Below, piece by piece: positions 28,503 through 58,066 of a stretch of DNA of 64,000 bases. The position numbers were made by a program, and so were the translations under genes. The notes under the pieces are model-generated. The model saw only the letters and a list, made by a program, of their open reading frames with translations. It was not told the DNA's origin and made no database searches. Origin of the DNA: Jeotgalicoccus saudimassiliensis (GTDB taxonomy: Bacteria; Bacillota; Bacilli; Staphylococcales; Salinicoccaceae); assembly GCF_000756715.1 (NCBI RefSeq), contig NZ_CCSE01000001.1, positions 992,001-1,056,000 of the forward strand, read 5' to 3'. How positions within the stretch are numbered: position 1 is the stretch's first letter; every line of letters starts with the position of its first letter.

Positions 28503-29311
28503 TAGTAACTCTCCTGTAAATAAATATTCTCTATTTTATAATCTATATCCGGAATCCAGCTGTTTAACACTTTTTCAAACCTGTTATTATCTCCGTGGAT
28601 AAAAATACGGTGTGCGGGCGTTTTATCGTGTGCACTAAGCAGCTGCTTTTTATGTAACTGCACCAGTGCCACCGAAACCGCTTCAAAGCCCGCATCAATA
28701 ATATGTTTCCTGCCGTTGAAGAACTCGTCGATAAACGGCTCGATAATGGGAAAATGCGTACAGCCGAGAATCACCGTATCAGCTGCCGTATTTTTGTAGG
28801 GTGCAAGTTTGTCTGCGACCGCTTTTCTCGTAATATCCGAATTTTCAAAATCAAGGCTTTCGATTAAGTCTACAAACTCCGGGCATGGTAAATTATGGAT
28901 TTTAACGTCTGAGTCAAAGCTCAGAATTCCCCGCTCGTATGCTCCCGATTTAATCGTTCCTTCTGTCGCAAGCAGCAGCATTTCGTTGTTGTCGCTTTTA
29001 CGCAGCGCACCGAGTGATCCCGGGTTAATAACACCGTAAACAGGAATATCGATTTCGTCACGAAGTGCCGGCATCACTGCCGCCGTAGCCGTATTGCATG
29101 CGATAATCACAGCTTTGACGCCTTTATCGATTAAAAACTGCACAGCCTCTTTCGTGTATTGTTTAACGTCTTCCTGACTTTTCGGTCCGTACGGACAGCG
29201 CATACTGTCCGCGAAATAATACACTTCCTCGGAAGGCAGCGCGTGAGTAATTTCCTTCATCACCGTCAGCCCGCCGACGCCCGAGTCCATAATACCGATC
29301 GGTCTATTCAT
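28502..29311 (-). CDS. murI: Glutamate racemase
   Basis: Makes D-glutamate for peptidoglycan. The 269-residue protein has MDSGVGGLTV at the N-terminus, the first catalytic cysteine in IIACNTATAAV near residue 72, and the second in ILGCTHFPII near residue 182. It overlaps the marR stop by eight bases and meets rdgB, forming a marR-murI-rdgB-phosphoesterase-GNAT cluster. Confidence 0.97.
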   Translation of the reverse strand: MNRPIGIMDSGVGGLTVMKEITHALPSEEVYYFADSMRCPYGPKSQEDVKQYTKEAVQFLIDKGVKAVIIACNTATAAVMPALRDEIDIPVYGVINPGSLGALRKSDNNEMLLLATEGTIKSGAYERGILSFDSDVKIHNLPCPEFVDLIESLDFENSDITRKAVADKLAPYKNTAADTVILGCTHFPIIEPFIDEFFNGRKHIIDAGFEAVSVALVQLHKKQLLSAHDKTPAHRIFIHGDNNRFEKVLNSWIPDIDYKIENIYLQESY

Positions 29312-29747
29312 ATGTCAGTCGCTCACTTTCCTCTAAAACATGTTCAAGTGCCGCCGGAAGAATTTTTCGCTCGTCTTCTCCCAGATTTTTAGTAATTTTC
29401 GCAATGTAATCGATACGTTTATCGATAACCTGCTGAATCACCTCTTTGCCCTTGTCCTCCATGCTGACAAGCACGAGGCGCTTATCCTTGTCTGAACGGT
29501 CGCGCCTCACGTAATTGCCGGACTCGAGCTTGTCGACAATATCCGTCGTCGTCGAATGCGCGAGGTATAACCTGTTCGCAAGCTCGCCGATCGTAATGCC
29601 GTCCTTGTCGCCCACCCATTGCAGCGCAACAAACTGCAGCGGGGAAATATCATGATGCTTTAAAATCTCCCTGCCGTTCACCCTGACGTGCGACGCGATG
29701 TAGCGCAATGATTTTTCAATTGATTTAGTCTCATGCTCATCATACAT
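29304..29747 (-). CDS. MarR-family transcriptional regulator
   Basis: A 147-residue winged-helix DNA-binding protein. The helix-turn-helix covers about residues 48-75 (ITIGELANRLYLAHSTTTDIVDK) and the wing is RRDRSDKDKRLVLVSM. MarR proteins usually sense small phenolic or oxidative signals and often control their own operon. The frame extends to 29897, but the ATG at 29747 with AAGGGGA upstream gives a normal MarR length. It is the first gene before murI, an unusual leader for that operon. Confidence 0.85.
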   Translation of the reverse strand: MYDEHETKSIEKSLRYIASHVRVNGREILKHHDISPLQFVALQWVGDKDGITIGELANRLYLAHSTTTDIVDKLESGNYVRRDRSDKDKRLVLVSMEDKGKEVIQQVIDKRIDYIAKITKNLGEDERKILPAALEHVLEESERLTYE

Positions 29748-29830
29748 AGTAGCCAGTCCCCTTAAAAATCCTTTATAAATATAATAACGTAAATTTGAAA
29801 AAAAAAATAGGAAGATGAAACATTGAAGCA

Positions 29831-29849
29831 CACAGACTTTTGGTCTGTG
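29831..29849. promoter_or_regulatory. Hairpin in the marR upstream region
   Basis: CACAGAC/GTCTGTG around a five-base loop, about 85 bases upstream of the marR start, with no T-run. A second symmetric site, ACAATAATTGT, lies at 29917-29927. Either could be an operator for the regulator; nothing proves it. Confidence 0.35.
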
Positions 29850-30007
29850 CGTTAATCGTGAAATCTCCAGTTGCATTGTTTGGCGGGGTTTTATCATCTG
29901 AAACGCGGGAAGTCCGACAATAATTGTTAATATTATGATGATAAAATGCTGCGCGCCGGTGATTGAGCGGCTGAACGTGAGCGGGACTTAAGTTGGCAGC
30001 CGGATTT

Positions 30008-30452
30008 GGTGATAAGTCGGGGGAAATCTCACCACTTATCACCGAAAAGGATCAAAACGGTGATATGTTGGCGGAAACTTTGGGACTTATCACCAAAAGA
30101 GAGCAAATCGGTGATATGTCAGCAGAAATCGCGGGACTTATCACCAAAAAGGAGCAAATCGGTGATATGTCAGCAGAAATAACAAGACTTATCACCAAAA
30201 AGGAGCAAAACGGTGATATGTCAGCAGAAATCGCGGGAATTATCACCAAAAGAGAGCAAAACGGTGATATGTCAGCAGAAATCGCGGGACTTATCACCAA
30301 AAAGGAGCAAATCGGTGATATGTCAGCAGAAATCGCGGGACTTATCACCAAAAGAGAGCAAAACGGTGATATGTCAGCAGAAATAACAAGACTTATCACC
30401 AAAAAGGAGCAAATCGGTGATATGTCAGAAAAAATAACGAGACTTATCACCA
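30008..30452. repeat. Tandem hairpin array C: nine 51-bp units
   Basis: Units begin at 30008 and then exactly every 51 bp to 30416. Each has GGTGATATGTC, eleven variable bases, then GGGACTTATCACC or a close variant. GGTGATA pairs with TATCACC. The first unit has GGTGATAAGT/ACTTATCACC, a fully paired 10-bp stem. The inter-hairpin segment is A-rich (AAAAAGGAGCAAAAC). Since 51 is 17 codons, both strands keep long open frames that encode a 17-residue repeat, with no ribosome site. The array lies between the sdhB terminator and the marR promoter region; nothing else was recognised in 29850-30480. Confidence 0.92.
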
Positions 30453-30487
30453 AAAACGCGGCATGACGTCCTGCAAACACCCAACAC

Positions 30488-30513
30488 AAAAAAGCCCCGC
30501 TCGTAAGCGGGGC
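30488..30513 (-). terminator. sdhCAB terminator
   Basis: GGCCCCGCTTACGAGCGGGGC followed by TTTTTT on the minus strand, about 24 bases past the sdhB stop. Confidence 0.92.
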
Positions 30514-30536
30514 CTTTCGATCTATCTATCATTCAA

Positions 30537-31316
30537 TTAGTTAACTTCGTGGTCGCTTCCGAAGAATGATTTGAACATGTGGAATGTTGTTTCGCGCTGC
30601 ATTGATGCGATTGATGTCGTTAAAGGAATTCCTTTTGGACATGCTTCGACACAGTTTTGTGCCATTCCGCATTCTGCGATTCCGCCTGTACCCATTAGAG
30701 CGTCAAGACGTTCGTTCTTTGTCATGCTGCCTGTCGGGTGAAGGTTGAAAAGGCGTACCTGTGAAATTGGTGCAGCACCCATGAATTTAGATTTGTCGTT
30801 AACGTTCGGACAAACTTCCAAACATACGCCGCATGACATACATTTAGATAATTCATAAGCGATCTGACGTTTTTTCTCAGGCATTCTCGGTCCGGGACCA
30901 AGGTCGTATGTACCGTCGATCGGTACCCAGGCCTGTACGCGTTTTAAGTTGTCGAACATGAATGAACGGTCTACCTGTAAGTCTCTGACTACAGGGAAAG
31001 TGCTCATCGGTTCTAATTTGATCGGCTGCTGGTACTGGTCAACAAGCGCAGTACATGACTGGCGCGCGTTGCCGTTAATTACCATTGAACAGGCACCGCA
31101 GACTTCCTCAAGACAGCTTGCGTCCCATGTTACTGCAGTTGTTTTCTGTCCTTTTGCATTTACCGGGTTTCTCTGGATTTCCATAAGCGCACTGATGATG
31201 TTCATGTTCGGGCGGTATGGAATTTCGAAGTCTTCCCAATAGCTGCTAGCTTCCGGATTTTCCTGGCGTCTGATACTTAGCTTTATAGTTTTTGTTTCAG
31301 TTGCTGTAGTACTCAT
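30537..31316 (-). CDS. sdhB: Succinate dehydrogenase iron-sulfur subunit
   Basis: Carries electrons from the flavoprotein to the membrane anchor. The 259-residue protein has the [2Fe-2S] cysteines in CLEEVCGACSMVING and QSC near residues 68-88. The [4Fe-4S] and [3Fe-4S] ligands are in CMSCGVCLEVCPNV (near 158) and CGMAQNCVEACPKG (near 213). It is the last gene of sdhCAB, as in Bacillus and Staphylococcus, with a strong terminator. Confidence 0.97.
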   Translation of the reverse strand: MSTTATETKTIKLSIRRQENPEASSYWEDFEIPYRPNMNIISALMEIQRNPVNAKGQKTTAVTWDASCLEEVCGACSMVINGNARQSCTALVDQYQQPIKLEPMSTFPVVRDLQVDRSFMFDNLKRVQAWVPIDGTYDLGPGPRMPEKKRQIAYELSKCMSCGVCLEVCPNVNDKSKFMGAAPISQVRLFNLHPTGSMTKNERLDALMGTGGIAECGMAQNCVEACPKGIPLTTSIASMQRETTFHMFKSFFGSDHEVN

Positions 31317-31339
31317 TTATATTTAGCCATCCCCTTCTA

Positions 31340-33091
31340 CTAATGTTTAGCTGAGTAGTCACGAACACGCGGCGGAATTAAGCTCACGTCAACGTCTTCG
31401 TATTCGAATCTCGGTGCTTCAAGTGCGCCTTCAAAGTATGCTTTAGTAGTTTTCAGCCATTCTTCGTCGTTACGTTCCGGGAAGTCCGGTTTGTAGTGCG
31501 CACCGCGTGATTCGTTTCTGTTGTATGCACCGATTGTAATTACGCGTGCAAGGACAAGCATGTTCCATAACTGGCGTGTAAAGAATGCCGCCTGGTTACT
31601 CCACTTCTTAGTATCGTTAATGTTGATTTTTTTATAGCGTTCCATTAACTCCAAGATTTTCTTGTCAGTTTCTAAAAGTTTATCGTTGTGACGTACTACT
31701 GTTACGTTAGCCGTCATAATTTCACCGAGTTCTTTATGGATAACATATGCGTTTTCCGTACCGTCCATCGCAAGGATGTTATCGAATTTCTCCTGCTCAG
31801 CCTGTGTATGTCTTTCGTACAGTGCTTCGTCAAGATCTTCGTATGAAGTTTCAAGTGTTTTCACGTAGTCGATCGCTTTCGGTCCTGCAACCATACCGCC
31901 GTAAATTGCCGACAGTAATGAGTTGGCACCTAAACGGTTACCGCCGTGCTGTGAGTAATCACACTCACCTGCAGCGAACAGTCCCGGAATTGATGTCATC
32001 TGGTCGTAGTCCACATACAGTCCGCCCATTGAGTAGTGTACCGCAGGGAAAATCTTCATCGGTACTTTACGCGGGTCGTCTCCTGTGAATTTCTCGTAGA
32101 TTTCAATGATTCCGCCGAGTTTAATATCAAGTTCTTTTGCATCTTTATGAGATAAATCAAGGTAAACCATGTTTTCTCCGTTAATACCGAGTTTCTGGTT
32201 TACACACACGTCAAAGATTTCACGTGTTGCGATATCGCGGGGTACGAGGTTACCGTAGTCCGGATATTTTTCTTCAAGGAAGTACCACGGTTTACCGTCT
32301 TTATAAGTCCAGACGCGTCCGCCTTCCCCGCGTGCAGATTCACTCATGAGACGGAGTTTATCGTCTCCCGGAATTGCTGTCGGGTGGATTTGGATAAATT
32401 CACCGTTAGCGTAAACTGCACCCTGCTGATAAACGATCGATGCCGCTGATCCTGTGTTGATCATCGAGTTCGTCGATTTACCGAAGATAATACCAGGGCC
32501 GCCCGTCGCCATAATTACAGCGTCAGCTTTGAATGTTTTAATTTCTCCGCTTGTGATTTCCTGTGCTGTAATTCCGCGTGCGCGTCCTTCGTCGTCTACG
32601 ACAACGCCTAGGAATTCCCATCCTTCGTACTTGTCAACCTGACCTTTAACTTCAAAGCTTCTTACCTGCTCATCAAGAGCGTACAGTAACTGCTGGCCTG
32701 TCGTAGCACCTGCGTATGCTGTACGGTGGTGAAGCGTTCCGCCGAAACGGCGGAAGTCTAAAAGACCTTCAGGTGTTCTGTTGAACATTACTCCCATACG
32801 GTCAAGCAGGTGGATGATCTTCGGTGCTGCTTCAGTCATTGCCTTTACAGGCGGCTGGTTCGCTAAGAAGTCTCCGCCGTATACTGTATCGTCAAAGTGA
32901 ATTAATGGTGAGTCTCCCTCACCTTTTGTGTTTACTGCACCGTTGATTCCGCCCTGTGCACACACCGAGTGTGAACGCTTAACCGGAACGATTGAAAATA
33001 AATCTATGTTAGCACCAGATTCTGCTGCTTTGATCGTTGCCATGAGTCCTGCAAGGCCCCCGCCGACAACGATTACTTTATTATCCGCCAT
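31340..33091 (-). CDS. sdhA: Succinate dehydrogenase flavoprotein subunit
   Basis: Oxidises succinate to fumarate with covalently bound FAD. The 583-residue protein has the dinucleotide-binding motif VVGGGLAGLMA (residues 7-17) and the flavin segment RSHSVCAQGGINGA near 40. The active-site region includes HPTAIPG and ESARGEGG near residues 235-255, and GANSLLSAIYGG lies near 385. It sits between sdhC and sdhB with short gaps. Confidence 0.97.
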   Translation of the reverse strand: MADNKVIVVGGGLAGLMATIKAAESGANIDLFSIVPVKRSHSVCAQGGINGAVNTKGEGDSPLIHFDDTVYGGDFLANQPPVKAMTEAAPKIIHLLDRMGVMFNRTPEGLLDFRRFGGTLHHRTAYAGATTGQQLLYALDEQVRSFEVKGQVDKYEGWEFLGVVVDDEGRARGITAQEITSGEIKTFKADAVIMATGGPGIIFGKSTNSMINTGSAASIVYQQGAVYANGEFIQIHPTAIPGDDKLRLMSESARGEGGRVWTYKDGKPWYFLEEKYPDYGNLVPRDIATREIFDVCVNQKLGINGENMVYLDLSHKDAKELDIKLGGIIEIYEKFTGDDPRKVPMKIFPAVHYSMGGLYVDYDQMTSIPGLFAAGECDYSQHGGNRLGANSLLSAIYGGMVAGPKAIDYVKTLETSYEDLDEALYERHTQAEQEKFDNILAMDGTENAYVIHKELGEIMTANVTVVRHNDKLLETDKKILELMERYKKININDTKKWSNQAAFFTRQLWNMLVLARVITIGAYNRNESRGAHYKPDFPERNDEEWLKTTKAYFEGALEAPRFEYEDVDVSLIPPRVRDYSAKH

Positions 33092-33105
33092 TATTTACAC
33101 TCCTT

Positions 33106-33717
33106 TTATACAAACGCAAAAATTGCCATTAGTCCGATAGTAGAAACTGCTAAGAAAATAAAAATTGCCACGTAACTCATAATCTGCTGCGATTTCGGTG
33201 ACTGTGTAATACCCCATGTAATCATGAACGTCCATAAACCGTTTGCAAAGTGGAAAACTGTCGCTAAGACACCGACAACCCAAAATACAAGCCAGAACGG
33301 ATTGGCAACGATCTGCTCAACCATCTGGAAGTTTACTTCAGCGCCAAGGAACACCTGGAAGCGCGTCTGGTAGACGTGAACTGCGATGAATATAAATGCA
33401 ATCACACCTGTAATTCTTTGGAGAACGAACATCCAGTTGCGGTAAGTTGCGTATCTGCCCACGTTGTTTTTAGCAGTAAATGCGATGTAAACACCGTAAA
33501 TACCGTGGAACAGAATTGGTAAGTAAATGATGAAAATCTCAAGCAGAATAACGAACGGCAGGTTACCCATAATACCTGCAGCGAAGTTAAATGCTTCCTC
33601 ACTGTATGTAGCCGTAAAGTTAACAAGCAAGTGCTGGATTAAAAAGACCCCCAGCGGTAAAACTCCGAGCAATGAATGTAATCTGCGAATGTAAAAACCT
33701 GAATCTTGATTCGACAC
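33106..33717 (-). CDS. sdhC: Succinate dehydrogenase cytochrome b558 subunit
   Basis: The di-haem membrane anchor that passes electrons to menaquinone. The 203-residue protein has five hydrophobic segments of the B. subtilis SdhC type. Candidate haem-ligand histidines are in LHSLLGVL and LIQHLLVNF (TM1), LFHGIYGVY (TM2), FIAVHVYQTRF (TM3) and VFHFANGLW (TM4). It is the first gene of the operon, with a promoter 45 bases upstream. Confidence 0.96.
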   Translation of the reverse strand: MSNQDSGFYIRRLHSLLGVLPLGVFLIQHLLVNFTATYSEEAFNFAAGIMGNLPFVILLEIFIIYLPILFHGIYGVYIAFTAKNNVGRYATYRNWMFVLQRITGVIAFIFIAVHVYQTRFQVFLGAEVNFQMVEQIVANPFWLVFWVVGVLATVFHFANGLWTFMITWGITQSPKSQQIMSYVAIFIFLAVSTIGLMAIFAFV

Positions 33718-33758
33718 AAAAGACCCCCCTAACTATTTGTCAACAAACTTTAACTCTT

Positions 33759-33787
33759 ATTTTACCCGTAATAATTTTACAAATCAA
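33759..33787 (-). promoter_or_regulatory. sdhCAB promoter
   Basis: TTGATT (33782-33787), a 17-base spacer and TAAAAT (33759-33764) on the minus strand, just after the end of uvrC. Confidence 0.7.
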
Positions 33788-33830
33788 GACAGCGTTTAAT
33801 CTTTTACACTTTTCTTATACATTCGCCGCC

Positions 33831-35606
33831 CTACTGCTGTTCGCTTAGTTTTCTAACTATGTTTTCCGCGACATTTTTCGGAATGCCAATCTCTGTGAAA
33901 TCGGTCACATTCTTTTCTTTCATCCGTTTGACTGAGCCGAATTTTGAAAGTAATTTTCGCTTCCTCGCCGGCCCGACACCTTCGATATTATCGAGCTGCG
34001 AGACGACAGACGTTTTGCGGCGTGTATTGCGGTGAAATGAAATTGCGAATCTGTGTACTTCGTCCTGAATCCGCTGGAGTAAATAAAAACTCTGCGAGTT
34101 CTTTTTCATCGGCACGATTTCCGCCGGATCGCCGTACAGCAGCTCCGCCGTCGAGTGTTTGTCATCTTTTGCGAGTCCCGCGACCGGAATATCGAGTGAC
34201 AGTTCGTTTAATAATACGCTTTTCACCGTATTCATATGTCCGACTGCCCCGTCTACGATAATTAAATCAGGGAGCGGCAGCCCTTCTTTTAACACGCGCG
34301 TATAGCGGCGTCTGACCGCTTCAGCCATAGACGCATAGTCATCCGGCCCTGTCACCGTTTTAATTTTATATTTGCGGTAATCCTTTTTGGACGGTTTGCC
34401 GTCGATAAACGACACCATTACACTGACCGGGTCCACACCCTGAATGTTCGAGTTGTCGAACGCCTCGATGCGGCGGGGCGTTTCGATGTTCATGACGTCA
34501 CCGAGCGTTTCAATCGCTTTAATCGTACGCGCTTCATCGCGGGCGATAATTTCAAATTTATTTTCGATCGCAATGCCGGCATTTTTTGTCGCGAGCTCCA
34601 CCATTTCGCGTTTGCCGCCCCGGAGCGGCGCTTTCACTGCTGCCGGCAGTGCCTCGTCGAGAAGTGCTGCGTTAAATTCTTTTGGAATGTGCACTTCTTT
34701 CGGCATTAAGTTCGAGCTGAGATCGTAAAAGTGCACGATGAATCTGAAGAACTCCTCTTCCGCCGAGTCGTTCATCGGAAACATTTCCGCTTTCTTTTCG
34801 ATCAGTTTACCGCTTCTGATAAAGAGCACGGACACCGACATCCAGCCGTTATCCACCGCGTAGCCGAAACAGTCGCGGGCAGTCATATCCGACGTCAGCA
34901 CGTTCTGCTTCAGCATCGTGTTCTCTATATGGCCCATTAAATCGCGGTACTCCTTCGCCTTTTCGAACTCGAGTTCTTCGGCTGCAGCGTGCATTTTTTC
35001 TTCCAGTTCTTTCATGACTTCATCGGTTTCGCCGTTTAGAAAGTCCGTGATGCCGTCAATCATCTTCTGGTTTTGTTCTTCTGTCACGTTAAATACGCAC
35101 GGGCCGAGACACTGTCCGATATGGTAATACAGACACAGTTTGTCCGGCATCGTGTTGCATTTTCTCAGCGGATAAATACGGTCCAGCAGCTTTTTTGTTT
35201 CGTGCGCACTGTACGCATTCGGGTACGGCCCGAAATATTTGCCCGACTTCGGCTTAACCGTCCGCGTAACGACGAGTTTCGGGTGCTTCTCCTTCGTAAT
35301 TTTAATGAAGGGATAGCTCTTGTCGTCTTTCAGTAAAATATTATATCTCGGAAGGTGTTTTTTAATTAATGTGTTCTCGAGCAGCAGCGATTCGATTTCC
35401 GAACCCGTGACGATAAAGTCGAACTCGGTAATATCGGCAACGAGGCGCATCGTCTTTTCATCGTGCGCACCGGTAAAGTACGACCGCACCCTGCTCCGGA
35501 GGTTTTTCGCCTTCCCGACGTATATAATTTCCCCGTCTTTATTTTTCATCAGATAACAGCCGGGTTCCACCGGCAGCACTGACAATTTCAATTTCAGTTC
35601 AGACAT
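33831..35606 (-). CDS. uvrC: Excinuclease ABC subunit C
   Basis: Makes the dual incisions in nucleotide excision repair with UvrB. The 591-residue protein has an N-terminal GIY-YIG nuclease domain ([20 protein letters not shown], residues 15-34) and a cysteine cluster in [21 protein letters not shown] near 150-170. The UVR motif is near 205, the RNase H-like domain near 370-520, and helix-hairpin-helix motifs lie at the C-terminus ([13 protein letters not shown]). It follows trxA after that gene's terminator and precedes sdhCAB, as in S. aureus. Confidence 0.97.
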
Positions 35607-35623
35607 ATATATCCCTTCTTCTA

Positions 35624-35655
35624 TAAAAAAAGCCGCCCAAAAATGGCGGCTTTAA
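35624..35655 (-). terminator. trxA terminator
   Basis: AAAGCCGCC/GGCGGCTTT stem followed by TTTTTT on the minus strand, in the 58-base gap between trxA and uvrC. Confidence 0.88.
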
Positions 35656-35664
35656 AAATTTCAA

Positions 35665-35979
35665 TTATGCATGTTTTTCTATTAATGCAGCAAGCTGCTC
35701 TTTAGGCTGGAATCCAACTACTTTATCAACAGGTTCGCCGTCTTTGAAAAGAATAAGAGTCGGAATACTCATTACTTCGTACTCGCTTGCTGTTGCCTGG
35801 TTTTCATCAACATTTAATTTAGCAATGTTTGCTTTACCTTCAACTTCAGGCGCTAATTCTTCAAGAATTGGAGCAATCATTTTACAAGGCCCGCACCAAG
35901 GTGCCCAGAAGTCTACTAATGTAAGTCCACTACCAATTTCTTCTTTAAATCCTGCATCGTTCACATCATATAATGCCAT
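35665..35979 (-). CDS. trxA: Thioredoxin
   Basis: A general protein disulfide reductase. The 104-residue protein carries the redox motif WCGPC (C29, C32) after FWAP, the cis-proline segment SIPTLILF near 72 and the C-terminal VGFQPKEQL. It has its own strong promoter and GGAGGT ribosome site. Confidence 0.97.
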
Positions 35980-36010
35980 ATAAAACTACCTCCATATTTG
36001 TGTTGTGTTT

Positions 36011-36039
36011 ATTATACAACAATTCATTTTGTCACTCAA
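36011..36039 (-). promoter_or_regulatory. trxA promoter
   Basis: TTGAGT (36034-36039), a 17-base spacer and a perfect TATAAT (36011-36016) on the minus strand, 32 bases upstream of trxA and just after the small membrane ORF. Confidence 0.8.
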
Positions 36040-36048
36040 CGGTATTGC

Positions 36049-36147
36049 TTAAGCGATAAACATCAGGTAGACAATGCCGCTTAAAAACATTATCACGCTG
36101 ATCACGATAAGCACCTTCGCGAGTTTATACATATCAAAGTTATCCAC
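36049..36147 (-). CDS. Predicted 32-residue single-pass membrane peptide
   Basis: A short frame between mutS2 and trxA starting with GTG. It begins MDNFDMYKLAK and continues into a hydrophobic helix of about 20 residues (LIVISVIMFLSGIVYLMFIA). AGGTGA, which includes the end of the mutS2 stop region, lies at ribosome-site distance before the GTG. Position right after mutS2 suggests coupled expression. No family was recognised. The hydrophobic stretch and ribosome site support it, but short length keeps confidence moderate. Confidence 0.5.
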   Translation of the reverse strand: MDNFDMYKLAKVLIVISVIMFLSGIVYLMFIA

Positions 36148-36157
36148 CGGGATTCAC

Positions 36158-38485
36158 CTACTTCATTTCAACTATCGTCACACCGAAGCCGCCTTCACTC
36201 GGCATACCGCCGCGGAATGATGATACTTTCGGGTGGCGTTTTAAATACTGCTGCACGCCTTTTTGCAGTGCGCCGGTGCCTTTACCGTGAATAATCTCGA
36301 CATCCGAGTAGTTCGACAGGAGCACCTGGTCGAGGTAATGCTCGAGACGGATCAGCGCATCTTCGTAACGTTCGCCCCGTAAATCGAGCGAACGGCTGAC
36401 ATGTGTTTTGTTCTGGCGTATCGTTACCGGCTTTTGCGGTTTCGACGCCTTACGTTTCTTCACTTCGGACTTGTCAAGCTTCATTTTAATAATGCCCATC
36501 TGCACAGTCACTTCGTCACCGTTCAGACCGATAATCTCACCCTTCTGACCGTACGTCAGCACGTCGACCTCATCGCCGACATTCAGTGTCTCAACTTTTT
36601 CGTTCCGCACATCTTTTTTAATGTCGCGCTGGTAATAGCTGTCCGACAGTTCTTTTTTCGCTTTGATGATTTCGTGTTCCTGAATGCTGTCGGCACCCAG
36701 TTCCTTCATCATTTCAAGTTCTTTTATAATTTCAGCCGCTTCCAGTTCGCGCTGTTTGACGATGCGGTTCGCTTCGTCTTCCGCGTTTTGGATCAGCTTA
36801 TCTTTAAATTTCGTAAACTGCTCGTTCGATTCTTTCAGCTCTTTTTGCAGTGCTTCCGCCTCACGCATCAGCTCGTGTGTGTCCTGTTCGTGTTCGCGCG
36901 CGAGTGTCGTATGGCGTTCGAGCGCAGTAATCATGTCATTGACTTCCATATTGTCGCGGCCCGTTAAGCTGCGCGCGCGGTCGATGACGCCGTGGTCGAG
37001 GCCGAGCTTATTGGAAATTTCAAAGGCATTCGATTTACCCGGTATGCCCATTAATAATCTGTACGTCGGCGATAAAGTGCTCACGTCAAACTCCACACTC
37101 GCGTTAATAACGTCGTCACGCGTATAACTGAACGACTTCAGCTGCGGGTAGTGCGTCGTTGAAATAATCTTCGCATCTTTATCGAGCAGATACTCGATAA
37201 TACTGATTGCGAGTGCCGCCCCTTCTTCAGGGTCCGTCCCCGCGCCGAGCTCATCGAGAATGACAAGTGATTCATCGTCGACACGCTTCAGTATGTCGGC
37301 AATATTTGTCATGTGGCTCGAGAACGTCGACAGCGACTGTTCGATCGACTGCTCGTCACCGATATCAGCGTACACATTTTTAAAGACCGCGATGGATGAA
37401 CCGTCGCGTGCCGGGATCGGAATTCCCGCCTGCGCCATTAAGACCGACAGACCGACCGTTTTAATCGTCACTGTCTTACCGCCGGTGTTCGGTCCTGTTA
37501 TAATGACCGCTTTCGTTTCCGGTTCAACGACGATGTCGTTTTTCACGACCGTTTCGCTGTCGATTAACGGATGGTACGCACCGATTAAACGGATGGAATC
37601 GTCTTCTGAAATTAACGGCTTCGTTCCTTTAATGTGTGCACCGTACTTCGCTTTTGCAAAGACGAAATCGATGTGGTGCAGGTTAGTATTGTATTCATAT
37701 AAATCATGCGCGACTTCGTTGACTCTTTCTGTCAGTTCGCTCAGGATGCGCGTGATTTCCGCTTCTTCCTGCTCTTTTAAGCGCGTAATGTTGTTGGTCA
37801 TATCGACGATCGCTGACGGTTCGACATAAATCGTCTGACCGCTTTGTGATGAATCGTGAATAATCCCTTTAAACTCGCTGCGGTAATCCACGTTAACCGG
37901 AATCACGTAGCGGCCGTTACGCATCGTAATGATACTGTCTGACAGCTTGCGCTGATTTTTTCTGACGATATCGTTTAAACGTTCGCGGATTTTCTGTTCC
38001 TCAGAGCCGATTTTACGGCGGATGCGGAGGAGTTCCGGCGACGCATGGTCGAGCACAGTTACTTCATCGACTGTTTCCGTAATGCGTTTGTACAGAAAAT
38101 GAATGTCTTCAAGTTCTGTAATGTACGGCTTAATATTCGAAAGAAATACTTCATCTTCTTCAAACGCATTGATCAGCGTATGAAGCATCTGTTTTCTGTT
38201 TAATATCGATTTAATTTTATTGAAGTCGCTGACGCCTAAAATACTGCCGATTTCAGCTCTTTTGACGAACGGCTTAATGTCGCTGATGCCGCCGAGTTCC
38301 ACATGGCGGTATCGGAGCATTGAAGACGCGTCGTCGACTTCCTCTATGTTCTTAACGATTGTACCGGGGTCGGTTTCGACGATGGAGAAATTTAACTCCG
38401 CCTTCGTCTTATCACTGACCGCGAATGCTTTTACCGATTCGAGAATTTTATCGAATTCCAGTTTCGTGAATGTCTTATCATTCAT
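36158..38485 (-). CDS. mutS2: Endonuclease MutS2 with Smr domain
   Basis: A MutS-like ATPase known from other bacteria to limit recombination and to act on collided ribosomes. The 775-residue protein has the Walker A motif GPNTGGKT near residue 332 and DELGAGTDPEEG near 410. A long coiled coil covers 510-620 and a C-terminal Smr nuclease-like domain begins near 700 (LDLRGERYEDAL, HGKGTGAL). It lacks the mismatch-recognition domain of MutS, as expected for MutS2. It overlaps polX by eight bases. Confidence 0.96.
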   Translation of the reverse strand: MNDKTFTKLEFDKILESVKAFAVSDKTKAELNFSIVETDPGTIVKNIEEVDDASSMLRYRHVELGGISDIKPFVKRAEIGSILGVSDFNKIKSILNRKQMLHTLINAFEEDEVFLSNIKPYITELEDIHFLYKRITETVDEVTVLDHASPELLRIRRKIGSEEQKIRERLNDIVRKNQRKLSDSIITMRNGRYVIPVNVDYRSEFKGIIHDSSQSGQTIYVEPSAIVDMTNNITRLKEQEEAEITRILSELTERVNEVAHDLYEYNTNLHHIDFVFAKAKYGAHIKGTKPLISEDDSIRLIGAYHPLIDSETVVKNDIVVEPETKAVIITGPNTGGKTVTIKTVGLSVLMAQAGIPIPARDGSSIAVFKNVYADIGDEQSIEQSLSTFSSHMTNIADILKRVDDESLVILDELGAGTDPEEGAALAISIIEYLLDKDAKIISTTHYPQLKSFSYTRDDVINASVEFDVSTLSPTYRLLMGIPGKSNAFEISNKLGLDHGVIDRARSLTGRDNMEVNDMITALERHTTLAREHEQDTHELMREAEALQKELKESNEQFTKFKDKLIQNAEDEANRIVKQRELEAAEIIKELEMMKELGADSIQEHEIIKAKKELSDSYYQRDIKKDVRNEKVETLNVGDEVDVLTYGQKGEIIGLNGDEVTVQMGIIKMKLDKSEVKKRKASKPQKPVTIRQNKTHVSRSLDLRGERYEDALIRLEHYLDQVLLSNYSDVEIIHGKGTGALQKGVQQYLKRHPKVSSFRGGMPSEGGFGVTIVEMK

Positions 38486-40190
38486 TTATATCACTCTGCT
38501 TACTTTTATTAATAAATGCTTTAAATTCTTCTCTCGTCATTGCGTTCAGCACCTGAGATTTTTTCACAAATGCTTTTTGCAGCGTGTCGACGCCATACTT
38601 CATAAAGTCGAGATGGTCGGTATGGTGCGCGTCCGTGTTTACTGTAAACATGACGTCGCGGTTTGCGATCACATCGCTCGATAAGTCGAGGCGCTGCGGG
38701 TTGGCGTTGATTTCAAGTACCGTATTGGTCTGTTTCGCGTAATCGAACAGTTCATCCATGTTTACCGGATAGCCGTCGCGGACACCGATAAGGCGTCCCG
38801 TCGGGTGCGCAATGTGCCGCACGTACGGATTGTCCATCGCCGCTTTCAGACGTTTCATAATATCTTCTTCCGACTGCTGAAAACTCGAATGAATCGCTGC
38901 GATTACGTAGTCGAGCTGACTGAGTATATCGTCCGGATAGTCGAGCGTGCCGTCTGCGAGTATGTCCATTTCCGTGCCGCTGTACACATCGATGTCGTCG
39001 TACTCCTTGTCGATGGCACGGATTTCCGCGAGCTGCTCAAGCAGACGTTCGTCGCTTAGGCCGTTGGCCACGCGCAGACTTTTCGAGTGGTCGGTAATGA
39101 CGATGTAGCTGTAGCCTTTCCGACGCGCCGCTTCCACCATGTCGCGCACACTGTACGCACCGTCACTGTAGACCGTGTGCATGTGCAGGTCCCCTTTGAT
39201 ATCACTGTGCTTAATAATTTCCGTCACGTCGATATCGGTTTCCTGCCCCGTTTCACGCATTGCCGGCGGAATGTACGGCAGCTCAAAGTAGTTGTAAAAC
39301 TCTTCTTCCGAGCTGAACGTCTTGACGCCGTCATGCGTTTCCACACCGTACTCGCTTATTTTCTCTCCACGCGCTTTAGCGATCTGACGCATTTTCACGT
39401 TGTGGTCCTTTGAACCTGTAAAGTGCTGCAGCGTTGAAATATACTCATCGCCGTTTACAAATCTGAAGTCGACGTTAATTTCATCGAAGTCATGTTCAAT
39501 TTCAACCGAGAGCTTTTTATCCCCCTGTGCAACGACGTGTTTTACAAACGGCTGGCTGACCATCGTTTCCGTAAACATTTCATAGTCTTCCACTTTGACG
39601 ATAAAATCCAGATCCCGCGACGTTTCCTTCGTCCGGCGTCCGCTCCCTGTCATGTCGTAACGCTCCACGCCCGGAATCGTCTCGATAACGTCCGTTATGA
39701 CTTTTTGGAATTTCAGGACGCGTGCGATCGGATAGCGTTCCGGTCTGTTTAATACCGTTTCAATCGATTTTAAAATGTTCTCTTCGGTCTTTTTGCCAAA
39801 GCCCGGCAACGCGCTGACTTCCTGATTTTCACATGCTGTTTTTAAATCTTCCAGTGTGCTGATGCCGAGTGCATCGTGAATTTTCGCGATTTTCTTCGGT
39901 CCGAGCGTCGGCAGCTTCAGCATGCGGACGAGGCCCGACGGAACTTTATCTTCCAATTCTTTTAATACCGGTGATTCGCCTGTCCGGACAAATTCGGTAA
40001 TGACTTCGTTCGTCCCTTTACCGATACCTTTCAGTGCACTGAAGTCCTCAATCTCATCGAGAGTTCTGCCGTCAGTTTCAAGTGACGCCGCCGCTTTCCG
40101 GTATGCAGAAACCTTGAAAGGATTCTCCAGATTTAATTCCATATATACTGCGATTTTCTCTAGCAGTCTGATAACATCTTTTTTATTCAT
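38478..40190 (-). CDS. polX: DNA polymerase X with PHP domain
   Basis: A repair polymerase with 3'-5' exonuclease activity. The 570-residue protein has N-terminal helix-hairpin-helix motifs (LKGIGKGTNEV near 50, LPGFGKKTEENIL near 128). The catalytic DxD-type segment is RDLDFIVKVED near 190. The C-terminal PHP domain carries GDLHMHTVYSDG near 333, the histidine AAIHSSF and the later NTDAHH segment. It sits between cvpA and mutS2, as in Bacillus and Staphylococcus. Confidence 0.95.
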   Translation of the reverse strand: MNKKDVIRLLEKIAVYMELNLENPFKVSAYRKAAASLETDGRTLDEIEDFSALKGIGKGTNEVITEFVRTGESPVLKELEDKVPSGLVRMLKLPTLGPKKIAKIHDALGISTLEDLKTACENQEVSALPGFGKKTEENILKSIETVLNRPERYPIARVLKFQKVITDVIETIPGVERYDMTGSGRRTKETSRDLDFIVKVEDYEMFTETMVSQPFVKHVVAQGDKKLSVEIEHDFDEINVDFRFVNGDEYISTLQHFTGSKDHNVKMRQIAKARGEKISEYGVETHDGVKTFSSEEEFYNYFELPYIPPAMRETGQETDIDVTEIIKHSDIKGDLHMHTVYSDGAYSVRDMVEAARRKGYSYIVITDHSKSLRVANGLSDERLLEQLAEIRAIDKEYDDIDVYSGTEMDILADGTLDYPDDILSQLDYVIAAIHSSFQQSEEDIMKRLKAAMDNPYVRHIAHPTGRLIGVRDGYPVNMDELFDYAKQTNTVLEINANPQRLDLSSDVIANRDVMFTVNTDAHHTDHLDFMKYGVDTLQKAFVKKSQVLNAMTREEFKAFINKSKQSDINE

Positions 40191-40219
40191 GTCCTACCTC
40201 CGAAAAAAGAGCCATATCT

Positions 40220-40747
40220 CTATGACTCTACTTGTATCCATTCTATTAATTTGTCCGATACTATAAATGTGTGTTCAACGATAAATGACGCAATGCCCGA
40301 CTCCGCCAGCGCTTCCTGAACCGGCATGTATGGAATCGTTGCGACGAAAAACAAAATGACAACGAGGACGTACACGACTTCGATTAAGCCGAGCACAGTA
40401 CCGATTATGCCTGGAATGAGTCCTGCAGAAGTAATCTGCTGCAGGTAATCAAATCCGCTGACGATAATCTGAATAATAATTTTACTGACGATAAAAATTA
40501 GAAAGAATGCAAACATATAATAATAAGCATATTCAGAATTGCTCACGTCTGACAGCATAATATTCCCCTGTGCTGTCGACGGGTACGGCATCACTAAATA
40601 AAACCTGCTGCCGAGCGCTTCATAATTTAATGAAGCAATGATGATCGCGGAAATCGTCCCGATAAAGTGCATAAACTGCAGCACTGCACCGCGGCGGTAA
40701 CCGGCAATCAGCCCGATTATAAGTATAATTAGAAGTATCAAAGTCAT
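40220..40747 (-). CDS. CvpA-family membrane protein
   Basis: A 175-residue protein with four hydrophobic segments and the CvpA-family N-terminus (GLIAGYRRGAVLQFMHFIGT). Homologues were named for colicin V production in E. coli; the role in Gram-positives (yshB in B. subtilis) is not established. It follows zapA by three bases and precedes polX, a conserved order in Firmicutes. Confidence 0.88.
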   Translation of the reverse strand: MTLILLIILIIGLIAGYRRGAVLQFMHFIGTISAIIIASLNYEALGSRFYLVMPYPSTAQGNIMLSDVSNSEYAYYYMFAFFLIFIVSKIIIQIIVSGFDYLQQITSAGLIPGIIGTVLGLIEVVYVLVVILFFVATIPYMPVQEALAESGIASFIVEHTFIVSDKLIEWIQVES

Positions 40748-40750
40748 AAA

Positions 40751-41014
40751 CTAGTTTCCTTTTTTAAGCGCACTGTGTTCTTTTTCCAGCGCCTCGTATT
40801 TTTCTTTTAACTTTATATAATCATCCATAATATTACAAGCCGTAAGCACCGCTTTTCTCGTCGTGTCGAGCCCCGGACTGTTTGAAGCAATCGCTGTAAT
40901 ATTGCTGTCGACTTCCTCCGCAACCTTCCTGAGGTGCTCCTCACTGTCTGTGCCGACCAGCGTATAATATTCGTTATATATTTTTACAGCAATGCGTGTT
41001 TTTCTCTCGCCCAT
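40751..41014 (-). CDS. zapA: Cell division protein ZapA
   Basis: Binds FtsZ and bundles filaments at the Z-ring. The 87-residue protein has the ZapA start ERKTRIAVKIYNEYYTLVG, then TRKAVLTACNIMDDYIKLKE and a C-terminal coiled coil. An upstream TTG in frame at 41035 would add seven residues; the ATG at 41014 with GGGGG upstream is preferred. In many staphylococci rnhC lies between pheT and zapA; here that gap holds only a repeat array. Confidence 0.92.
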   Translation of the reverse strand: MGERKTRIAVKIYNEYYTLVGTDSEEHLRKVAEEVDSNITAIASNSPGLDTTRKAVLTACNIMDDYIKLKEKYEALEKEHSALKKGN

Positions 41015-41195
41015 ATTACATTGCCCCCATGTCAATAAAATTTCTCACACATTTATCTATTTCATTAGTTTATTATACTTATCATGGAATGTTAATACAA
41101 GCAATTAAAATGGTGCGGTTATTGGGGTTTCGGCGTGTTTTTGAGATGTTTGCATGCCGGGTTTGTGTGTTGTGGGGAGCGGGTGGTTGGCGAGT

Positions 41196-41691
41196 GGTGA
41201 TAAGTTCTGGGAGTTTGTGGGACTTATCACCGGTTGGGGTGCTTTTGGTGATATGTCGGGGGAGTTTGAGGGACTTATCACCGGTTGGGAGCGTTTTGGT
41301 GATATGTCGGAGAATTTTGAGGGACTTATCACCGTTTCGGGCAGTTTTGGTGATATGTCGGAGAATTTTGAGGGACTTATCACCGTTTCGGGCAGTTTTG
41401 GTGATATGTCGGAGAATTTTGAGGGACTTATCACCGTTTGAAGGTGTTTTGGTGATATGTCGGGGGAGTTTGTGGGACTTATCACCGTTTGAGGCAGTTT
41501 TGGTGATATGTCGGAGAATTTTGAGGGACTTATCACCGGTTGAAGGCGTTTTGATGATATGTCGGGGAATTTTGAGGGACTTATCACCGTTTGAAGGCGT
41601 CTTGATGATATGTCAGCAGATTCCAGGACACTTATCACCATCCGGGGCACTTCAGGTGATATGCCAGCAGATTACAGGACACTTATCACCA
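41196..41691. repeat. Tandem hairpin array D: ten 51-bp units, same stem as array C
   Basis: Units begin at 41196 and then exactly every 51 bp to 41655. The stem is GGTGATATGTC ... GGGACTTATCACC, matching the array at 30008-30452. The loops (GGAGAATTTTGA) and the inter-hairpin segments (GTTTCGGGCAGTTTT) differ. The first unit again has GGTGATAAGT. Units 8 and 9 begin GATGATATGTC, and the last two have CAGCAGATT loops resembling the other array. The array fills the gap between the pheT terminator and the zapA upstream region (41036-41758); no gene was seen there. Confidence 0.92.
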
Positions 41692-41702
41692 AAAACAAAC
41701 AC

Positions 41703-41736
41703 AAAAAAAGCAGAGACACCCTCAGGCGCCTCTGCC
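41703..41736 (-). terminator. pheST terminator
   Basis: GGCAGAGGCGCC/GGTGTCTCTGC stem, then seven T on the minus strand, about 20 bases past the pheT stop. Confidence 0.88.
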
Positions 41737-41758: not shown

Positions 41759-44161
41759 CTATCCTCTTAAAATATAGCCCGCTGCTTTCAATGCGTCTTC
41801 CACCGGAGTGTGAAGGGCTTCGATGTCTTTATCTGTCAGCGTTTTTTCTCTGTTTAAATATGTTAAGTGCAGCGCAACGGATTTCTTACCGTCTGCCATG
41901 TGCTCGCCGTCGTAAATATCAAACGGATAAACGTCTTCGAGATATTTCGGCGCAGCTGCACGGATCTCCGAAATAATTTCAGATACGTTCACGTCGCTCG
42001 AAACTTCAAGCGCCACGTCGCGTGATACTGACGGATATTTAGGCAGGATGTCGTAAAGAATGCTGCCCGTCTTGACTTTCAGTACTTCCGCAAGATTAAT
42101 TTCGAATACTGCTGTCTGTCCAAGGTCATGGTCTTCAGCGTACTGCGGGTGCAGTTCACCTGCGAAACCGATCACTTTATCATCTAAGAGTACGTCTGCC
42201 GTACGTCCCGGATGCAGTTCATCGTGTGCCGCCGACTGTTTGTAAGTCACGCGGTCCACGAGACCGAGTTTTTCAAACAATGATTCCAGCACACCTTTCA
42301 CAGTGTAGAAATCAGACGGCACCGACGTGTTCGTCCATGCAGTTTTGTGCTGTTCGCCGGTCACAATTCCCGCGAGCATTTCGATTTCGTCCGGCAGCTG
42401 ATCCTGGCCGTTCGTATCGAAAATTTTGCCGATTTCAAACAGCGATACATTTTTCTGCTGGCGGTTCACGTTGTACGTCGCGTTGTCCACAAGGTGCGGC
42501 ACAAGCGACGTGCGGAGTACTGCGCGGTCTTCACTCATCGGCATTAATAATTGAAGAGACTCCGTCAGCGGCGAGAATTCACCGATGCGCTTTTTGCTCG
42601 TTAACGCGTAGTTTATCGCCTGAGAGAATCCCTGTGCGTTCAGCTGGCGTTTAATGACGCGGACTTCGTGCTGCTCATCCGATAAACGGCCCGGTGTAAT
42701 CGTCGAGTATTCTGGGAGCGTTGACGGAATGTTGTCGTAACCGAAAATACGCGCCACCTCTTCAGAAATGTCTTCCGGAATTTTCAAATCGTCGCGGCGT
42801 GACGGAATAATCACGTCGATTGCGCCGTTCTCTTCCTCGGCACCCAATCCAAGTTTCTGCAGTGTGCCGAGAATTTCAGCCACTGTCAGTTCAGTACCGA
42901 GGCGGTTATTGATAAAGTCCGCAGATGTCCGGATGACACCCGGCTCAAGGTTCAGTTCACCGTCTGATGCGATGCCTTTAAGCGTCTTACCGCCTGCATA
43001 TTTTTCAAGTAAATACGCCGCGCGGTTTACCGCCGGTAAAATAAATTCGTGTGACACGCCTTTTTCAAAACGCTGTGATGCTTCACTGCGTAAGTTCAGA
43101 CGGCTGCTCGTCTTACGGATTTTAACGGGTTCGAATAATGCAGACTCAATTACAACGTTCACTGTGTTATCCGTTACTTCCGAATCGAGACCGCCCATAA
43201 CACCTGCAAGTGCAATCGTCGCGTCGCCGTTTGTGATTACGATATCTTCAGCTGTCAGCGTGCGTTCCTTACCGTCGAGCGTCGTGAACTTCTCGTCTTC
43301 ACGCGCTTTACGCGTAACAATTTTGTCAGAACCAATCTGATCGCGGTCGAACATATGAAGCGGCTGACCGTATTCCATTAACACGTAGTTTGAAATATCA
43401 ACGACGTTGTTAATCGGACGGATGCCCGCTTTGATTAAACGGATCTGCATCCATAACGGCGCAGGTTTAATTTCAACGCCGCGCACTTCACGTGCCGCAT
43501 AAAACGGTACGGCTTCAGCGTCTTCGTTTTCAATAGCAACAGTGACGACATCATCGATTTCCGAAACTGCCGTTTCAGGTACTTCCACTTCCCCGCCGAA
43601 TAATGCACGTGTTTCGTAAGCTGCACCGATCATCGACAGCGCATCTTTACGGTTTGGCGTTAAGTCGAACTCGAGCACCTGGTCGTCCAAATACAGCGCT
43701 TCAAGTGCTTCGGTACCAGGTGCCGGTTCACCGTTGAACATGAAAATGCCGCCCTGGTATTCAGCCGGTACGTATTCTTCTTTCACACCGATTTCTTCCA
43801 GTGAACAGATCATGCCTTCTGACACTTCACCGCGGAGTTTCGCGCGTTTAATTTTAATGCCGCCCGGCAGTCTGCCGCCGACTTTTGACACGATGACGTA
43901 GCTGTCGGCTTTAACGTTTGGCGCACCGCAGACAATCTGCGTCGTTTCTTCGCCTGTATCGACTTCGCATAAGTTTAAACGGTCCGCTTCCGGGTGCGGT
44001 TTAACCGACTTCACATAGCCGACAACAAGTTTTTTAATATCTGCTGTGTAATCGATAATATCGTCGACTTCAATCCCGCCGCGCGTAATGCTTTCAGCAA
44101 GTTCGTTCGTCGGCACGTTAATATCGATAAACGTCTCAAGCCACTCTCTAGATACTCTCAT
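41759..44161 (-). CDS. pheT: Phenylalanyl-tRNA synthetase beta subunit
   Basis: With PheS forms the heterotetramer that charges tRNA-Phe. The 800-residue protein has an EMAP-type tRNA-binding domain (about residues 40-150, VGYVKSVKPHPEADRLNLCE), the B3/B4 editing domain, B5, a catalytic-core-like domain, and a C-terminal ferredoxin-fold anticodon-binding domain (FDX-ACB, PKYPSVSRDVALEV near 708). Its ATG overlaps the pheS stop by one base (TAATG). Confidence 0.97.
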   Translation of the reverse strand: MRVSREWLETFIDINVPTNELAESITRGGIEVDDIIDYTADIKKLVVGYVKSVKPHPEADRLNLCEVDTGEETTQIVCGAPNVKADSYVIVSKVGGRLPGGIKIKRAKLRGEVSEGMICSLEEIGVKEEYVPAEYQGGIFMFNGEPAPGTEALEALYLDDQVLEFDLTPNRKDALSMIGAAYETRALFGGEVEVPETAVSEIDDVVTVAIENEDAEAVPFYAAREVRGVEIKPAPLWMQIRLIKAGIRPINNVVDISNYVLMEYGQPLHMFDRDQIGSDKIVTRKAREDEKFTTLDGKERTLTAEDIVITNGDATIALAGVMGGLDSEVTDNTVNVVIESALFEPVKIRKTSSRLNLRSEASQRFEKGVSHEFILPAVNRAAYLLEKYAGGKTLKGIASDGELNLEPGVIRTSADFINNRLGTELTVAEILGTLQKLGLGAEEENGAIDVIIPSRRDDLKIPEDISEEVARIFGYDNIPSTLPEYSTITPGRLSDEQHEVRVIKRQLNAQGFSQAINYALTSKKRIGEFSPLTESLQLLMPMSEDRAVLRTSLVPHLVDNATYNVNRQQKNVSLFEIGKIFDTNGQDQLPDEIEMLAGIVTGEQHKTAWTNTSVPSDFYTVKGVLESLFEKLGLVDRVTYKQSAAHDELHPGRTADVLLDDKVIGFAGELHPQYAEDHDLGQTAVFEINLAEVLKVKTGSILYDILPKYPSVSRDVALEVSSDVNVSEIISEIRAAAPKYLEDVYPFDIYDGEHMADGKKSVALHLTYLNREKTLTDKDIEALHTPVEDALKAAGYILRG

Positions 44162-50116: not shown

Positions 50117-50279
50117 CTCATCTGCCAGTAAGACGTTGTCACAGGACGATGAACCTGTTTCTTCTGCTTGCAAGATGGTCTTACAGGTCAATGAGTATAC
50201 TTCTTCTGCTTGTAAGACGTTGTCACGGGCAGATGAGTCTACTTCAATTGCCAGTAAGACGTTGTCACGGGCAGATGAG
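50117..50279. repeat. Tandem hairpin array E: four 42-bp units
   Basis: Units begin at 50122, 50164, 50206 and 50248, exactly 42 bp apart. The typical unit carries CTGCCAGTAAGACGTTGTCA and CGGGCAGATGAG. The array opens with CTCATCTGCC and closes with GGCAGATGAG, a perfect 10-bp inverted pair. Within units GAC GTT GTC pairs, and in unit 2 AAGA TGG TCTT replaces it, keeping complementarity. It lies just past the NERD gene stop and upstream of the YhfC-type gene. No terminator is visible for the NERD gene, so the array itself may end its transcript. Confidence 0.8.
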
Positions 50280-50290
50280 CATATAATCTG

Positions 50291-57781: not shown

Positions 57782-57940
57782 GTGATGTTCACCTCATTTA
57801 GTAATAGATTAGTTGCAATTATTATAACATCGAAACCACTAAACATAAAAAAAGAAAGACGATTGGCGGGATTTGGTGCGGTTTGGTGTGGTTTGAGGGA
57901 GATAAAAATCGCGGTGCCGGTTGAATGGGCGTGCTGCTGT

Positions 57941-58066
57941 GCCATTGTCGAAACTACAGTGGCACGGTGGAGGCCCCGCTGCGCCATTGTCGAAGTCACA
58001 ATGGCACGATGGAGGTCCTGCTGCGCCATTGTCGAAACCACAAGGGCACGGTGGAGACGCAGCAAC
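57941..58066. repeat. Tandem hairpin array F: three 42-bp units
   Basis: Units begin at 57941, 57983 and 58025. Each has GCCATTGTCGAA followed by a complementary half (ACAGTGGC, ACAATGGC, ACAAGGGC). The middle unit has a perfect 8-bp stem, GCCATTGT/ACAATGGC, and the third has a mismatch. GTGGAGG and CTGCTGC recur between hairpins. The array lies between the terminator of the ABM gene and the start of nrdR; the rest of 57782-58100 contains no gene I can support. Confidence 0.8.

Follow-up and report, generated by a model that had tools for sequence, protein, structure and literature searches.

Palindromic 51-bp repeat arrays at operon ends in Jeotgalicoccus share one geometry and differ in half-site between species

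Two tandem arrays, 11 kb apart in a 64-kb stretch of the Jeotgalicoccus saudimassiliensis genome (contig NZ_CCSE01000001.1, positions 992,001 to 1,056,000; hereafter the window), exemplify a class of 41-, 42-, and 51-bp repeat arrays located at the 3' ends of operons. The 51-bp geometry recurs at fixed loci in related species, while the half-site embedded in it differs by species and tends to differ in the same way at unlinked loci. The explanation we favor, with confidence slightly above even, is that the arrays are cooperative binding sites for a putative family of sequence-specific proteins whose specificity turns over between species, perhaps forming a barrier at the end of the operon.

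Array a (30008..30451) consists of nine 36-bp palindromes and array b (41196..41690) of ten, neither being assigned to a strand. In both, a 10-bp half-site (GGTGATA[A/T]GT) is followed by 16 variable bases, the inverted half-site, and 15 variable bases (10-N16-10-N15), so that half-sites stand 26 and 25 bp apart from center to center and A/T tracts fall at fixed places; the two arrays differ in center and linker. An exact 51-bp period in both arrays had been proposed by a first-pass annotation made from the sequence alone, and it was upheld, as was the fully paired GGTGATAAGT...ACTTATCACC in the first unit of each. The ends given there, 30452 and 41691, overshoot the real arrays by one base, and the halves it quoted hold as a consensus but not in every unit: array a has GGTGATATGTC exactly in 7 of 9 units and array b in 6 of 10, and the corresponding counts for GGGACTTATCACC are 4 of 9 and 8 of 10. 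A T-T mismatch interrupts the stem in most units. Within the window, ACTTATCACC and GGTGATAAGT are confined to these two arrays.

A scan of the J. saudimassiliensis genome (2.19 Mb, one contig) for the palindrome, which we call motif A, tolerated up to 3 mismatches in the 20 fixed bases and returned 46 matches per strand, all of them in four arrays (a to d) with no scattered single copies elsewhere; the reversed pattern, used as a control, had no match in this genome. Units clustered by array, the nearest neighbor lying in the same array in 41 of 41 cases (9.8 expected), and in a unit tree arrays b, c, and d each fell on one side of a branch, with array a needing 2 changes. Half-site identity was 0.953 between arrays, taking the better of two orientations, and 0.971 within them. 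Centers and linkers, in agreement with the first-pass annotation, were homogeneous within arrays and different between them (0.725 versus 0.468 for centers, 0.799 versus 0.597 for linkers). All of these comparisons omit the opening unit of the 870-kb array, which has 3 mismatches, and the linker count, the nearest-neighbor test, and the tree also omit the last unit of each array. Concerted evolution within arrays, one half of the original proposal, is borne out by these data, and neither of the findings that the first-pass annotation had named as counting against it was seen. The other half, a common origin, is not required in the form of a single ancestral array, because other species carry another half-site at the same loci. 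Nor is the stem the only constrained part, as had been suggested: its sequence is constrained, but so are the spacing (in motif A, N16 with n=83 and N15 with n=59) and three A/T tracts, at center positions 7-10, linker 2-4, and linker 12-14.

Beyond this genome, a scan of one genome per species across 84,980 species, among which J. saudimassiliensis itself may not be included, found exact motif A matches in 15 stretches, all from J. coquinae, J. marinus, J. meleagridis, or J. psychrophilus. With one mismatch or none, the motif was present in 6 of 33 genomes of the family, all Jeotgalicoccus. Downstream of sdhB, the half-site GGTGATAAGT (family A) is replaced in three other species by TGAGCAAGGT (family B) with the 10-N16-10-N15 frame kept; G007 also, and J. 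coquinae in part, carry family B there. Family B has the same spacings (N16, n=57; N15, n=55), and its A/T tract positions match those of family A. Families C (TGAGACAGAT), D (GCATTAGT), and E (GTCTATAAGT) follow the same frame with less data. At up to 3 mismatches, family A units number 46 in J. saudimassiliensis, 23 in J. meleagridis, 17 in J. marinus, 4 each in J. coquinae and J. psychrophilus, and 1 in G007, with single 3-mismatch matches in G002, G004, and G009. Family B units number 48 in G007, 47 in G002, 27 in J. psychrophilus, 15 in G004, 5 in J. coquinae, and 1 in G009, with none in J. saudimassiliensis, J. marinus, or J. meleagridis. Family C was found in J. coquinae (21 units) and J. 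saudimassiliensis (5) and in no other genome scanned, and reversed controls in the family scans gave no matches.

Four loci (eno, pheT, sdhB, and nth) were compared across nine genomes for families A to E at up to 4 mismatches (5 for D). On the 3' side of eno, all nine carry units of the 51-bp frame: A in J. saudimassiliensis and J. marinus, B in four genomes (G004 with just 2 units), C in J. coquinae, D in G009, and E with one A unit in J. meleagridis. Arrays were present at pheT and at sdhB in 6 of 8 genomes examined, and at nth in 4 of 8. J. coquinae, the nearest relative of J. saudimassiliensis at pheT (95% identity), has C as its commonest motif at this mismatch limit at all four loci, where J. 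saudimassiliensis has A. Leaving J. saudimassiliensis aside, motifs agreed between loci within a species in 19 of 22 pairs (within-locus shuffle mean, 8.4; 2 of 20000 shuffles as high), a statistic that describes more than it tests because related species are not independent. Including it gives 25 of 28, its own agreement being by construction since the four loci were picked for the presence of A there. Single A palindromes resembling relics stand beside B or C arrays at pheT in J. coquinae and J. psychrophilus and at nth in G007. Outside Jeotgalicoccus, the eno locus carries 51-bp arrays in two g3 genomes and 41-bp arrays in G025; further 41-bp arrays occur at nth in G001 and, in two g6 genomes, at pheT. 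No 41-, 42-, or 51-bp array was present in eight stretches taken from one g6 genome. The g3 eno arrays (L199:1187-1379 and L204:2887-3177) have, by eye, a CGCTATAAGT-like half-site with ATAAGT in common with families A and E.

The first-pass annotation described the units as hairpins, and the distribution of stem changes does not support the view that they matter as such. Among distinct 36-mers (78 in family A, 81 in B, 17 in C, and 25 in E), one-sided and two-sided changes numbered 70 and 1 in A (1.5 two-sided changes expected if the sides are independent), 140 and 10 in B (11.6), 34 and 1 in C (3.0), and 56 and 5 in E (6.0). Selection for pairing would yield paired changes, and none of the four families has an excess of them; what is constrained is two double-stranded half-sites, three A/T tracts, and their spacing. 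These counts bear directly on the possibility that the arrays act as RNA, as stem-loops in the transcript that end transcription or shield the ends of mRNAs. Arrays do follow genes, in 11 of the 17 two-sided changes the two sides match (1 of 1 in A, 5 of 10 in B, 0 of 1 in C, 5 of 5 in E), and four window units folded better than shuffles (z -3.2 to -5.4), as palindromes do. Despite the matching changes, we rejected a hairpin or RNA function on the pair statistics and consider it very improbable: most window units carry the T-T stem mismatch, a separate terminator precedes both window arrays, and the phasing of dyads would be left unexplained. Rfam covariance models at the gathering score matched the window once, at a tRNA that is not in the arrays.

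That phasing is visible between neighboring palindromes. In 204 of 207 homotypic neighbor pairs the dyads are separated by 51 bp, a spacing that duplication alone would preserve, but heterotypic neighbors cannot arise by tandem duplication. The 16 heterotypic distances (40, 40, 41, 41, 41, 41, 42, 42, 42, 51, 52, 61, 72, 72, 91, and 125 bp) fall near whole helical turns (R 0.87; Rayleigh p ~6e-6; 0 of 20000 uniform draws as high), and the 7 pairs whose members both have at most 4 mismatches give p ~0.008 (9 of 20000 draws as high). Within the unit, A/T bases follow a 10.2-bp rhythm that was equaled by 2 of 2000 position shuffles in family A, 44 in B, 26 in C, and 156 in E. This rhythm, together with the operon-end placement described below, is what strong topoisomerase or bent-DNA sites absorbing supercoils at operon ends might look like, on the model of the bacterial interspersed mosaic element (BIME) type BIME-2. 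According to excerpts of PMC6379681, gyrase has a preference for phased composition and for regions lying downstream of loci that are transcribed, which fits, and the Escherichia coli BIME-2 gyrase sites described there are likewise intergenic palindromic arrays with helical-phase composition. Those excerpts make no mention of a half-site code varying from species to species within one frame, and gyrase or bending sites would predict neither this nor invariant 10-bp half-sites and strict dyads, leaving the explanation improbable.

The window arrays belong to a larger population. Tandem Repeats Finder was applied to the window, twenty evenly spread 20-kb stretches of J. saudimassiliensis, and twenty from other Jeotgalicoccus genomes, several of the latter chosen to cover sdhB or pheT. 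With overlaps removed, 35 of 38 arrays of period 30-200 had a period of 41, 42, or 51 bp or a multiple of these; the remaining three (33, 36, and 60) look like coding repeats. The twenty J. saudimassiliensis stretches contained 11 arrays in 400 kb, and on that basis the whole genome would hold, very roughly, 60. Unit sequences differ widely across the class, with many unrelated half-sites, and many 41- and 42-bp units are palindromic, their half-sites often flanking 7 bases (judged by eye, with no null). Two such arrays, both without strand, are in the window, one at 8595..9097 (41-bp period, palindromic, ACAACGG-N7-CCGTTGT) and one at 57936..58056 (42-bp period, palindromic, CCATTGT-N7-ACAATGG). 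A third, unstranded array at 50121..50283 has a 42-bp period, is weakly palindromic with no terminator found alongside, and is a possible member. Exceptions to the 41/42/51 rule occur at other species' A sites, with periods of 50 (L047), 30 (L050), and 72 (L053), and in G011, with a period of 50. Two further loci show inverted repeats at other periods: the nth locus of G002 (L212:1081-1379), outside the 41/51 rule with an 81-bp period and a long internal inverted repeat, and G016, of another genus of the family (g4), with a 52-bp period (L127:850-1178 and 7968-8219).

Homogeneity within arrays is what ordinary variable-number tandem repeats would display, if an arbitrary unit had been multiplied by slippage and its palindromy and common half-sites were incidental. 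The recurrence of a few periods in this sample argues otherwise, reversed controls find nothing, and the shared half-sites already contradict the idea, the A half-site occurring at 18 separate loci in six genomes with mostly different sequence in between. We give it next to no credence.

Placement is similarly regular. Genes were taken by a simple longest-open reading frame (ORF) rule, and long open frames running through the repeats were not taken as genes. The 33 of 35 class-period arrays that could be placed all lie between predicted genes, 21 in co-directional and 12 in convergent gaps, with none of the 33 in a divergent gap (6.1 expected, p 0.0025); the J. saudimassiliensis arrays alone divide into 10, 6, and 0. 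A terminator-like hairpin with a T tract was present on a tested gene side of 24 of 26 arrays, where mononucleotide shuffles gave 6.6; seven placed arrays were excluded from this test, and both sides were tried for most co-directional arrays, as they were for the shuffles. In each of the six convergent cases from J. saudimassiliensis, a terminator follows just one of the two genes, and the array occupies the space from this terminator to the end of the other gene.

Both window arrays follow this arrangement. The 3' end of sdhB (30537..31316, minus strand; succinate dehydrogenase iron-sulfur subunit; NF006391, 460 bits) faces array a, and a hairpin and T-tract search placed the intrinsic terminator of its operon between them (30488..30517, minus strand). 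A consensus terminator scan missed this terminator; the region 30485-30525 folds at -21.8 kcal/mol. On the far side of array a is a regulator gene (29304..29897, minus strand) with below-cut-off matches to BilQ, HpaR, and FabT, which we take to be of the type named MarR and whose true start is probably further in. The 3' end of pheT (41759..44161, minus strand; TIGR00472, 817 bits) faces array b across its own intrinsic terminator (41709..41736, minus strand), with zapA (40751..41035, minus strand; NF010724, 89 bits) on the far side. With separate terminators preceding both arrays and no pairing constraint, the array unit itself does not qualify as an intrinsic terminator. By eye, the unit farthest from the terminated gene is the fully paired one in three J. 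saudimassiliensis arrays, three cases only, and the A-to-T variant of the half-site is mostly on the side away from that gene (window 30059-30451 and 41247-41690; L036:3685-4332). Nameable array neighbors are ordinary genes, including sdhB, pheT, zapA, eno, nth, and PBP1A, and two neighbors had no match at the limits used (L044:2513-3949 in NCBIfam, L051:4081-6096 in Pfam). A gene for a NERD-domain protein (L036:4371-5273), convergent with eno and adjoining the eno array, is 53-55% identical to two relatives, compared with 92-93% for eno. No cas gene was found among the nameable neighbors, no genome-wide cas search having been made, and the linkers repeat within arrays, which separates these arrays from CRISPR.

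The main rival to protein binding, and one that does not exclude it, is that the arrays are selfish satellites: palindromes copied and dispersed by a putative enzyme, in families that rise and fall and persist at operon ends because insertion does no harm there. The enzyme's need for a paired substrate would account for half-sites and spacing. A single genome holds several motif families, some of them present at several loci, and a given site has been taken over by one family after another; placement is extragenic, and in J. meleagridis the centers look alike, by eye, at unlinked loci. In J. saudimassiliensis, however, centers and linkers differ between loci and half-sites do not, so that recent copying alone is insufficient, and copying does not by itself account for the helical phasing between different families. 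No match to the Y1 transposase family (REP-associated tyrosine transposase, RAYT; PF01797) was found in the J. saudimassiliensis genome, the same search matching 5 of 14 controls, and RAYT-driven copying was rejected for this reason. On balance we regard the satellite explanation as unlikely, both for the copying itself and for its account of half-sites and spacing, while taking it more seriously than the other alternatives.

The known elements closest to this description are the repetitive extragenic palindromic (REP) sequences and BIMEs of enterobacteria and pseudomonads, short alternating palindromes that are regularly spaced, extragenic, found at 3' ends, and species specific. The arrays share with them alternating palindromic half-sites and, in all 33 placed cases, an extragenic position. 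They differ in having 36-bp units with simple 10-bp half-sites in long runs at a fixed 51-bp step, in a frame that recurs with another half-site at the same loci, and in a genome from which the REP-associated transposase family is absent; REP sequences carry a GTAG or CGTC tag at one end (parts of PMC3733652). REPINs, REP doublets that form hairpins, resemble the arrays in their two inverted conserved ends, variable middle, several families per genome, and extragenic location, but they are tied to RAYT genes, and the commonest spacings between REPs in SBW25 are 71 or 110 bp (parts of PMC3116915). Without a Y1 transposase in J. saudimassiliensis or a pairing constraint in families A, B, C, and E, we do not assign the arrays to either group. 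Sta-1 to Sta-4 of Staphylococcus aureus, as covered in parts of PMC2267715, are also repeated structured sequences of low-GC Gram-positive bacteria, several of them intergenic; these Firmicutes stem-loop families are described there by size and copy number and can be set beside our arrays by description only.

Other origins were considered and rejected. No viral contig carried an exact motif A or B palindrome, and array a had no plasmid match, which argues against phage or plasmid origin. The 41-bp class resembles core sites of tyrosine recombinases, but the three Phage_integrase matches in the J. saudimassiliensis genome probably have other roles, two of them presumably being XerC and XerD. 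The third, near 107,700-108,230 of the contig, is an Xer-like tyrosine recombinase gene flanked by two genes with below-cut-off matches to type I restriction specificity subunits; it is probably an hsdS inverter, and the locus a likely phase-variable inversion locus.

If the arrays are instead protein-binding sites, every half-site family would have its own reader, a member of a DNA-binding protein family that recognizes the double-stranded form and sits as a dimer on each palindrome. Contact between neighboring dimers would explain why dyads stay on the same helical face, a step of 41 or 51 bp being four or five turns. Arrays would grow and be homogenized through unequal recombination or slippage, and when the specificity of the dominant protein changed, existing arrays would degenerate into relics and replacements would arise in the same places. 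The most likely use, which we hold more weakly, would be a protein barrier behind the terminator that stops convergent RNA polymerase or read-through. Roadblocks to transcription formed by DNA-bound proteins, as presented in parts of PMC10310618 and PMC4132739, offer an analogy only: a bound protein stands in the path of RNA polymerase there, and here both the protein and the blocking are putative.

Several observations weigh against this account. The data are consistent with the first-pass suggestion that one factor recognizes the stem, but no cognate protein was found among the 19 different array neighbors examined. Motif A matches in J. saudimassiliensis all lie in the four arrays and none is an isolated operator at a promoter, as a regulator would have, and there is therefore no autoregulated gene to point to; judged by eye, most of the single palindromes in other species sit at gene ends. 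Neither pheT nor sdhB has an array in J. marinus or J. meleagridis, meaning that arrays are not needed there. Motif agreement between loci depends on the mismatch threshold. At up to 6 mismatches, degenerate B-like units (4-6 mismatches) outnumber C in J. coquinae by 5 to 4 at sdhB and 5 to 3 at nth, and calling this species B at both loci lowers the agreement to 15 of 22 (shuffle mean, 10.5; 424 of 20000 as high). Motifs are mixed between loci in G004 and J. meleagridis (G006). In the heterotypic set, some junctions are orthologous, making the effective n smaller, and 9 of 16 depend on a weak unit call; family E has a loose consensus and is weak in the phasing test. Several of the 33 placed arrays are likewise orthologous, and J. 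saudimassiliensis alone yields 0 of 16 divergent gaps against 3.0 expected (one-sided p 0.04). One A/B site of J. psychrophilus outside the placement sample (L057), flanked by a minus-strand gene and a short plus-strand ORF, may be divergent, and placement at gene ends is also expected if arrays are merely tolerated.

An open-access literature search turned up no paper describing these arrays, which does not prove that none exists, and excerpts of PMC12306157 do not mention Jeotgalicoccus. More tentatively, and at less than even confidence, we propose that a DNA-binding protein family forms phased filaments on operon-end palindrome arrays, that its code turns over between sister species, and that arrays are then rebuilt with the new half-site. 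With similar reserve, rebuilding at several unlinked loci, where place, dyad symmetry, and helical spacing stay, could be likened to the behavior of fast-evolving binding satellites. If this is true, at least one genome would have palindromic gene-end arrays and no Y1 transposase, and the coevolution of proteins with the repeat arrays they bind, for which centromeres or recombination hotspots are the usual subjects, would become open to study in a bacterium. Several Jeotgalicoccus species are available in culture collections, and together they would form a natural series, with a protein-DNA recognition code swapped at conserved sites and its spacing rules intact, that could expose a class of transcription barriers.

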